Shown here piece after piece: positions 19,694 to 22,012 of a DNA stretch of 64,000 bases. The translations under genes and the position numbers were made by a program. The DNA lies in the NCBI GenBank assembly GCA_937876355.1, contig CALFHN010000145.1, positions 62,001-126,000 on the forward strand, in the 5' to 3' direction. Each line of letters begins with the position of its first letter. The stretch's first letter is position 1. This DNA comes from an uncultured Bacteroidota bacterium (GTDB lineage Bacteria; Bacteroidota; Rhodothermia; Rhodothermales; UBA10348). The notes below the pieces were generated by a model. That model did no database searches and was not told the DNA's origin. It saw only the letters and a program-made list of their open reading frames with translations.

Positions 19694-19745
19694 GCGGCGG
19701 CTGGATTGGGTTTTTACCCAACCCAGCCGCCGCTTCCATTTTTAC
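19694..19745. terminator. Long hairpin between convergent genes
   Basis: GCGGCGGCTGG (19694-19704) pairs with CCAGCCGCCGC (19723-19733), with an inner TTGGGT/ACCCAA stem and TTTT loop. A T-rich stretch follows at 19738-19743. It stands between the small basic ORF and the leftward aminomutase gene and can terminate both. Confidence 0.85.
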
Positions 19746-19764: not shown

Positions 19765-20895
19765 TTACTTTACAAAGGAATCCATTTCCGGAAGCCCTAT
19801 TGGGACTTGCCCAGGTAGCGGGGCTTCGTTCATTTCGACCCAAATATCGCCACGGGTGGATTTCATAACTACCCCTTCGGCGTTGCGACCCAGCACATAG
19901 TCGCGAGTTAGGGGCACTTTGCCAAAGGGCGTATCAAGAACATATTTCGGAATCGCAAAACCGGTTAGCCGACCCTGTAGTTCGTGCATGATGTGCATTC
20001 CGACTTCGATGGGCGTGCGAAGGTGCGCCGTTCCTCCAATAAGTTGGGCCTGATACAGATAATATGGCCTGATGCGCATGCGAACGAGGCCCTGACAAAG
20101 TTCGCGCATCGTTTCAACCGAATCATTGATACCCTTAAGCAACACCGTTTGGTTACCAACCGGAACTCCAGCCCTGAGCAACCTGTCGATGGCCGCGCCC
20201 GCCTCTGGGGTCAGTTCATTTGGGTGATTGAAGTGGGTATTGAACCAAATTGGATGGTGTTTCGACAACACCTCACAAAGCTCGGGAGTAATGCGTTGTG
20301 GCAACTTGACGGGCATTCTCGAACCGATCCGGATTAGGTCGACGTGAGGAATAGCCCGAAGTTCAGTCAGGAGCCAATCAATGTTTGCGTCGCCAAGCGT
20401 TAGTGGATCGCCGCCGGTAAGCAGAACGTCTCGAATCTCGGAATGGGCCGCAATGTAGGCTATGGCCTCACGTAATTCGCCTTTTCGCATCATGAATTCG
20501 GCCTCGCCGACCATCCGTTTACGAAGGCAATACCTACAATAAATGGCGCACTGACTGGTCACACAAAAAGCGACCCGATCTGGATAGTTATGAATTAAAT
20601 TTTTGACCGGAGAATGGGCCACCTCCTCTAGCGGATCTTCCATTCCCACCACATCGGGTGCCAGTTCATCCATTAATGGCACAACTTGGCGACGAATCGG
20701 GCAGTTTGGATCCGATGGATCCATCAATGAAGCATAGTAGGGGGTGATGGACCACTGAAAAACGTCTTTTGTGGCCTCAATGGCCTCGGATTCCGTCTCA
20801 GAGGGTTGGATATACTCCCTCAAGGCCATCTCGGAATCAATCCGATGCCTCATGTGCCAACGCCAATCATTCCACTGTTCCGCCGTGTATTTCAA
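19765..20895 (-). CDS. KamA-family radical SAM 2,3-aminomutase (substrate uncertain)
   Basis: A 376-residue PLP- and SAM-dependent aminomutase that moves an alpha amino group to the beta carbon. The iron-sulfur motif is Cys116-x3-Cys120-x2-Cys123, LLTGGDPL is the SAM-binding GGDP segment, and Lys326 (DTPFGKVPL) fits the PLP lysine. By alignment to clostridial lysine 2,3-aminomutase, where Asp293 and Asp330 hold the lysine side chain, this protein has Gln284 and Asp321 at the same 37-residue spacing. It is therefore neither a clear lysine nor glutamate enzyme. The gene start overlaps the stop of an ATP-grasp ligase gene by 4 bp, a strong sign of joint function. Confidence 0.88.
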   Translation of the reverse strand: MKYTAEQWNDWRWHMRHRIDSEMALREYIQPSETESEAIEATKDVFQWSITPYYASLMDPSDPNCPIRRQVVPLMDELAPDVVGMEDPLEEVAHSPVKNLIHNYPDRVAFCVTSQCAIYCRYCLRKRMVGEAEFMMRKGELREAIAYIAAHSEIRDVLLTGGDPLTLGDANIDWLLTELRAIPHVDLIRIGSRMPVKLPQRITPELCEVLSKHHPIWFNTHFNHPNELTPEAGAAIDRLLRAGVPVGNQTVLLKGINDSVETMRELCQGLVRMRIRPYYLYQAQLIGGTAHLRTPIEVGMHIMHELQGRLTGFAIPKYVLDTPFGKVPLTRDYVLGRNAEGVVMKSTRGDIWVEMNEAPLPGQVPIGLPEMDSFVK

Positions 20896-21878
20896 GCCAC
20901 AACCCTTTGAAACGCTTCCTTCAGTACACCAGCTAAAAATTCAGAGTACGGGACACCCTGTAATTCCGCCATTATAGCGAATGTCCCGTTTGGCGCAAAG
21001 GTTGGCAGAGGGTTAATCTCCAAAAACCACTCTTTCCCTTTTGAATCGACTCGAAAATCGATTCGGGCGAAATCTTTGCACTCCAATTTGTGAAAGATGG
21101 TTAGTGCCGAGGCTTGAAGTCGGGCTTCTAATTCGGAAGTCAGCACTCCGGGTAAGCTGAACGAGTAGTCCTGCTCAGGTAGGCCTTTTCGGTCTAGGAC
21201 ATGAAGTCCGATTCCCGTATCTGTTTCTATGGCTCTTTGGATGACGGGCAGTGTACGCGCCGGATTGTGACCAATTACCGCAACCGTATACTCGCTACCT
21301 TCAACAAATTCTTCAACCAAAACATCCTGACCGTAATTCGAAGTGATGTCACTTACTTGGTTACGTAACTCCTGAATCGACTGCACTTTGCTGGCTATCG
21401 TTAGTCCTTTTGCAGAACCCTCGTACCTAGGCTTCACAAAAAGCGGAAATCTGCGCGGAAGGCGTAAACAATCAACTTCTTCATTTTCACAAAAAACGGC
21501 ATAGTTAGGTGTGAACAAACCAGCACTGACGGCCAAATCTTTGGTCCAGACTTTGTCTAAACTCAGCGACAACGTGAGCGCATCCGAACCAATAAAAGGG
21601 ACCCCCATCATTTCCAATAACGTTGGCGCTTCTCCTTCTCTATTACGTCCCCGTCCTCCTTCTGCAATATTGATGGCTACGTCAAAATCCGGATTATCCA
21701 TGCGAGACAATAGGTTACGGGCCGGACCTACGCGAAGAGGTTCGTGATTTAAGGCTCTAATAGCAGACTCGAGAGCCAGCACGGTCTCTTCCGGTTCGTT
21801 TTCTACGTCTGCATCGAACGCCTCGCCTTGGATCCAAGGGTAATCTTCAAATAAATCGTATATCAGTCCGACTCGCAT
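20892..21878 (-). CDS. ATP-grasp ligase, D-Ala-D-Ala ligase-like
   Basis: The start is placed at ATG 21878 (MRVGLIYDLFED), giving about 328 residues; the open frame extends further without support. The family features are DVAINIAEGGRGRN, PFIGSDALTLSLSLDK, the ATP-grasp lysine in FPLFVKPRYEGSAKGL, VEEFVEGSEYTVAVIG, and the metal-binding FARIDFR and EINPLPTF. ATP-grasp ligases activate a carboxylate as acyl phosphate and join it to an amine. True D-Ala-D-Ala ligases sit in cell-wall clusters; this one is translationally coupled to a 2,3-aminomutase. It may therefore ligate a beta-amino acid into a dipeptide or amide. Confidence 0.85.
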   Translation of the reverse strand: MRVGLIYDLFEDYPWIQGEAFDADVENEPEETVLALESAIRALNHEPLRVGPARNLLSRMDNPDFDVAINIAEGGRGRNREGEAPTLLEMMGVPFIGSDALTLSLSLDKVWTKDLAVSAGLFTPNYAVFCENEEVDCLRLPRRFPLFVKPRYEGSAKGLTIASKVQSIQELRNQVSDITSNYGQDVLVEEFVEGSEYTVAVIGHNPARTLPVIQRAIETDTGIGLHVLDRKGLPEQDYSFSLPGVLTSELEARLQASALTIFHKLECKDFARIDFRVDSKGKEWFLEINPLPTFAPNGTFAIMAELQGVPYSEFLAGVLKEAFQRVVA

Positions 21879-22012
21879 GGTTCTAATCGTCGAAAAATGA
21901 TCTCTGTTGTAGAAATAAATGATCCTGAGCCATACTACGAACACTGGTTCTTTTTGTGCGAACCATCTATACTCTCTATCTACAATTCACCAAGGTCTTA
22001 CAACATTCTGAA

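Follow-up and report, generated by a model that had tools for sequence, protein, structure and literature searches.

The window, i.e., the whole stretch of 64,000 nucleotides from an uncultured Rhodothermales bacterium that was analysed, contains a gene for a KamA-type aminomutase that overlaps a gene for an ATP-grasp ligase. This arrangement raises the question whether the two enzymes act in a common pathway and, if so, on which amino acid and towards which product. An earlier sequence-only reading had proposed an aminomutase with a changed substrate site coupled to the ligase, together forming an undescribed dipeptide, osmolyte or envelope building block.

The aminomutase and ligase genes form a two-gene unit

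The features of the locus are as follows:

19765..20895, minus strand: radical SAM/PLP aminomutase of the KamA family (376 aa, starting with TTG; C116/C120/C123, R125, Q284, D321, K326)
20892..21878, minus strand: ATP-grasp ligase resembling D-Ala-D-Ala ligases (328 aa, starting with ATG; scores under every Ddl and Van cut-off)
20044..20046, minus strand: Gln284 codon CAA, at the position of the lysine-binding Asp293 of clostridial lysine 2,3-aminomutase (LAM) by alignment to 2A5H
19933..19935, minus strand: Asp321 codon GAT, at the position of clostridial LAM Asp330 by alignment to 2A5H
20892..20895, minus strand: 4-bp TTGA overlap of the ligase stop and the KamA start

The 4-bp overlap reported earlier was recovered, both reading frames lying at these positions of the minus strand. 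Homologues of KamA begin with ATG at the residue encoded by the TTG, and homologues of the ligase start at MRVGL, while the ligase frame in the ORF listing can be extended to a GTG at 21944; both the ligase ATG and the KamA TTG are thus supported by homologues starting at the same residues. The gene upstream of the pair, encoding a putative cyclase (PF04199), is divergent, and the operon in the window therefore comprises two genes. No conserved third gene was found beside the pair in Rhodothermales. In several genomes the ligase carries long N-terminal extensions, which were considered as fused domains and rejected, as they look like frames antisense to the neighbouring gene. Between the KamA stop and a gene on the opposite strand, the window contains a long near-perfect inverted repeat (19694-19735; GGCGGCTGGATTGGGT...ACCCAACCCAGCCGCC), which is likely a terminator.

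The aminomutase belongs to a separate clade with an altered side-chain pocket

The KamA protein clearly belongs to the KamA-type radical SAM aminomutases, scoring 342 bits against TIGR00238 (cut-off 199) and possessing the CxxxCxxC motif and the PLP lysine. It aligned to the Clostridium subterminale LAM 2A5H with an E value of 3e-112 and 44 percent identity, and the predicted fold found its best match in the same structure (TM 0.86). As the sequence-only reading had claimed, all cofactor motifs are in place: the cluster cysteines align as C116/C120/C123 and the PLP lysine K337 as K326; the carboxylate-binding R134 corresponds to R125. Also the claimed side-chain positions held in this alignment, with D293 replaced by Q284 and D330 retained as D321. 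Further differences from 2A5H are a loop between D330 and K337 that is two residues shorter, a shorter C-terminus, and a serine in place of Cys268, a residue of the clostridial enzyme which we take to be a zinc ligand.

To our knowledge, characterised KamA-type aminomutases use lysine, arginine or glutamate as substrates. The window protein stayed below the cut-off of all three corresponding models, with 443.6 bits for lysine 2,3-aminomutase (TIGR03820, cut-off 525), 451.8 bits for arginine 2,3-aminomutase (TIGR04468, cut-off 600), which is the closest curated model, and 441 bits for glutamate 2,3-aminomutase (TIGR04368, cut-off 650). Of the two lysine-binding aspartates expected of a LAM (293 and 330), the window protein has only the second. 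The arginine model was passed by a positive control, an Embleya protein (639.9 bits); the loop ahead of its PLP lysine is about as short as in the window protein, but at 293 it carries Asp and at 330 Thr, reversing what is seen in the window. Glutamate 2,3-aminomutases share family and cofactors and, as noted earlier, have both lysine-binding aspartates altered, namely to Lys and Asn (PMC3965090), as opposed to the Gln and Asp found here.

The Q284/D321 pattern is clade-specific and not due to chance. It was invariant in 22/22 aligned Rhodothermales KamA proteins and occurred in 79 of the 80 named loci, which come from Rhodothermia, Balneolales and Myxococcota; these 79 are all those whose sequence reaches that part of the protein. 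In a tree of 53 rows, the window-type proteins formed a clade of their own (support 100/97), apart from confirmed LAMs and far from EpmB. A second tree united the clade with a divergent Myxococcota protein carrying the same motif (99/99), and another relative has His at the Gln284 position (locus L267, genome G355). Beyond the clade and its two nearest outliers, the KamA proteins examined had Asp at 284 or were remote EpmB-like types. Profile scores separated the same groups, as window-type KamA proteins reached at least 560 bits and all others at most 444 bits in a set of 297 genomes from the phylum of the window and 189 from Myxococcota. The changed substrate site proposed earlier is thus a fixed property of a subfamily. 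The gene for the divergent Myxococcota protein (motifs FHPQ and LDTPFGKVPL; L222:1313-2908, genome G361) lies 55 bp behind panD, is accompanied by no ligase gene, and its product is related to the G355 protein.

In LAM the side-chain amine of lysine is held by two aspartates, and as one of them is a glutamine here, the substrate is probably an amino acid other than lysine. Alternatively, KamA may be a LAM variant and the pair may produce a beta-lysine amide or dipeptide. The retention of Asp321, R125 and all cofactor residues, the identity to LAM, and a LAM score near the best family score would be in line with this. We nevertheless regard it as unlikely, as Q284 is invariant where LAMs carry Asp, the protein falls outside the LAM clade and below the LAM cut-off, and the genome has a separate ablA-ablB locus (L002, G000:C126:9411-10409 and following), encoding a YQHD-type aminomutase and an acetyltransferase-like protein, so that N-acetyl-beta-lysine is probably made independently. 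The ablA-ablB operon for N-epsilon-acetyl-beta-lysine follows the same two-gene logic of an aminomutase and an enzyme modifying the beta-amino acid; its second enzyme, AblB, is an acetyltransferase, whereas the partner in the window is a ligase.

A function as EpmB-type enzyme in EF-P modification, to which membership in the KamA superfamily might point, is hardly credible. The protein scored 253 bits against the EpmB model (cut-off 369) and is remote from EpmB in the tree, and EpmA over the cut-off was found in none of 34 genomes including that of the window, the matches below the cut-off resembling lysyl-tRNA synthetases in length. On these grounds the EF-P route was rejected. Hence neither of the two outcomes that the sequence-only reading had named as refuting it, a grouping with confirmed LAMs or one with EpmB and an EF-P partner elsewhere, was observed.

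The ligase retains the chemistry but not the specificity residues of Ddl

The predicted fold of the ligase (mean pLDDT 92) best matched Ddl structures with TM scores of about 0.7-0.77, and the protein scored 106 bits against the Pfam family PF07478. Together with the ATP-site residues K149, E153, R272, E287 and N289, this places it among the Ddl-like ATP-grasp proteins. It fell well short of the D-alanine--D-alanine ligase model, however (TIGR01205, 144 bits, cut-off 246). Compared to Yersinia pestis Ddl, the residues K144, E148, R255, D257, E270 and N272 are all conserved (K149, E153, R272, D274, E287 and N289 in the window), whereas Y216 and S281 are replaced by G232 and G298. The predicted fold and the ATP-grasp and acyl-phosphate residues are therefore shared with Ddl and Van ligases, suggesting that the chemistry is retained while the determinants for D-Ala-D-Ala are gone. 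The omega loop around position 231 differs among genomes. A role of the window ligase as the sole Ddl of its genome was rejected, as a bona fide Ddl (267 bits) is encoded separately (G000:C120).

KamA-ligase neighbourhoods also occur in other settings. On plasmid pTHIMO01 of Thioflavicoccus mobilis, a KamA gene is adjacent to one for an ATP-grasp ligase that is Ddl-like and shares 29 percent identity with that of the window, but the KamA is of the Asp/Asp type, the genes are convergent, and genes for SbnA, an ornithine-cyclodeaminase-like protein and a diaminobutyrate transaminase are additionally present; this plasmid cluster (L185:4980-10461) is possibly a small-peptide cluster. On a Sinorhizobium americanum plasmid (L182:5962-8421), the KamA has Cys in place of Asp330 and is followed by a different ATP-grasp protein.

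Aminomutase and ligase co-occur across distant phyla

Among 59 Rhodothermales relatives (60 listed genomes less the window's own), 41 possessed both genes, 14 neither, two only KamA and two only the ligase, corresponding to a Fisher test value of 1e-9 that is uncorrected for relatedness. In both ligase-only genomes the ligase match is cut off, or appears to be cut off, by the end of the contig, namely on the side expected to harbour KamA. In five genomes (G029, G031, G037, G043, G053) the two genes are separated by a large distance or lie on separate contigs, indicating that co-occurrence is not a consequence of linkage alone. Both genes were located inside the fetched stretch in 67 of the 80 named loci. 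The pair recurs in Balneolales and in Myxococcota, the latter with the same order and near-overlap; many of the Myxococcota loci would likewise allow for an overlap of 4 bp. A literature search limited to open-licence papers found no publication on this gene pair.

It would be conceivable that the two genes are mere neighbours, each serving something else. This would agree with the genomes in which the genes are unlinked and with G035 and G047, where KamA occurs without a close ligase and might act by itself or together with a different enzyme. The near-perfect co-occurrence, which includes the unlinked cases, and the fact that order and spacing agree between two distant phyla make this improbable, and the coupling proposed in the sequence-only reading is borne out at the level of co-occurrence.

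Where the ligase gene is unlinked, its neighbours are a threonine dehydratase gene in one genus, which it directly follows (L228:3506-5781, L231:5977-8255), and an aldehyde dehydrogenase gene in another, so that no common neighbour was found. In Balneolales, a gene for a transglutaminase-like protein shares 4 bp with the start of KamA (L105:4384-5655), and at L099 and L105 a gene for a GntR regulator adjoins that of the ligase.

A putative pathway to an amide of a beta-amino acid

Family membership, active-site residues, clade and co-occurrence lead us to favour, with slightly better than even confidence, a pathway of two consecutive steps in which an amino acid other than lysine would be converted to a beta-amino acid and then to an amide at the expense of ATP. 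We infer the reaction of each enzyme, the order of the steps, the non-lysine substrate and the amide product. In the first step, KamA would shift the alpha-amino group to the beta carbon using SAM, the [4Fe-4S] cluster and PLP, a reaction class suggested by the family and the conserved cofactor residues; the substrate is probably an amino acid that is polar or carries a single charge. In the second, the Ddl-like ligase would form an acyl phosphate with ATP and subsequently an amide that includes the beta-amino acid; a dipeptide-like compound is most likely. A clade whose side-chain pocket is different yet invariant, and which comes with its own ligase in at least three groups of bacteria, points to an uncharacterised beta-amino acid and to a product that has been retained in many genomes. 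Automatic annotation could go astray here, as the only models matched by these proteins are the general ones for KamA and D-Ala-D-Ala ligase.

The osmolyte among the products proposed earlier has lost ground. Many carriers of the pair are halophilic or marine by their record titles, and beta-amino acids serve as solutes in other organisms (PMC1224877), which would fit the synthesis of a compatible solute by KamA and the ligase. However, Salinibacter ruber follows a salt-in strategy, balancing salt with K+ and containing few organic solutes, and the solutes of Rhodothermus are mannosylglycerate and mannosylglyceramide (PMC1224877); a Salinibacter and Rhodothermus MAGs carry the pair despite these strategies. 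The pair is also present in Myxococcota MAGs with soil-type names, and we consider a solute function quite improbable.

Even less probable, in our view, is that KamA acts as an alanine 2,3-aminomutase, providing the beta-alanine for CoA synthesis in place of PanD, and that the ligase takes over further downstream. Six genomes that carry KamA, that of the window (92 percent complete) and G002, G014, G029, G034 and G055, yielded no panD, and one Q-type KamA gene adjoins panD. Most of the pair-bearing genomes searched, however, have panD over the cut-off, and there is thus no pattern of PanD replacement. Moreover, Asp321 is retained, although a methyl side chain would presumably not need it.

The pair precedes murJ in Myxococcota

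Window-type KamA was present in 26/189 sampled Myxococcota genomes. By our own tally from the locus tables, there are 41 distinct loci of the Myxococcota type, and in 39 of these murJ, which encodes the transporter of cell-wall precursors, follows downstream on the same strand, at less than 200 bp from the KamA stop in 33 loci and at about 0.3-3 kb in six. The two exceptions are L129, which has no ligase gene, and L264, where an integrase-like gene interrupts the locus near the contig end. In the 21 genomes searched, the murJ beside the pair encodes the only strong MurJ. The pair was not seen at murJ loci read from Myxococcota genomes without window-type KamA, and no murJ linkage of the pair was seen in Rhodothermales or Balneolales.

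The order ligase-kamA-murJ lends indirect support to the envelope building block proposed earlier, and it is this linkage in Myxococcota alone that suggests that the cell envelope is where the product is used. Yet an Asp-type KamA gene lies about 2.5 kb upstream of murJ in four Myxococcota genomes without window-type KamA, and the murJ link is therefore suggestive but no proof of an envelope role; KamA and murJ could be close to each other by a coincidence of this region. A role of the product in the envelope is thus speculative. In its specific form, the KamA subfamily would supply a beta-amino acid from a new substrate and the second Ddl-like ligase would build a dipeptide that becomes part of lipid II or of a different envelope precursor, either in place of or in addition to D-Ala-D-Ala or a cross-bridge residue, a scenario that we consider doubtful. 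The product of the pair may be a new envelope component, provided that the linkage to murJ is functional.

At one of the loci with an Asp-type KamA (L224:5836-11176), the genes for KamA, a lipoprotein-like protein, mazG and murJ are consecutive, and the spacing between KamA and murJ is similar in G363, G390 and G415.
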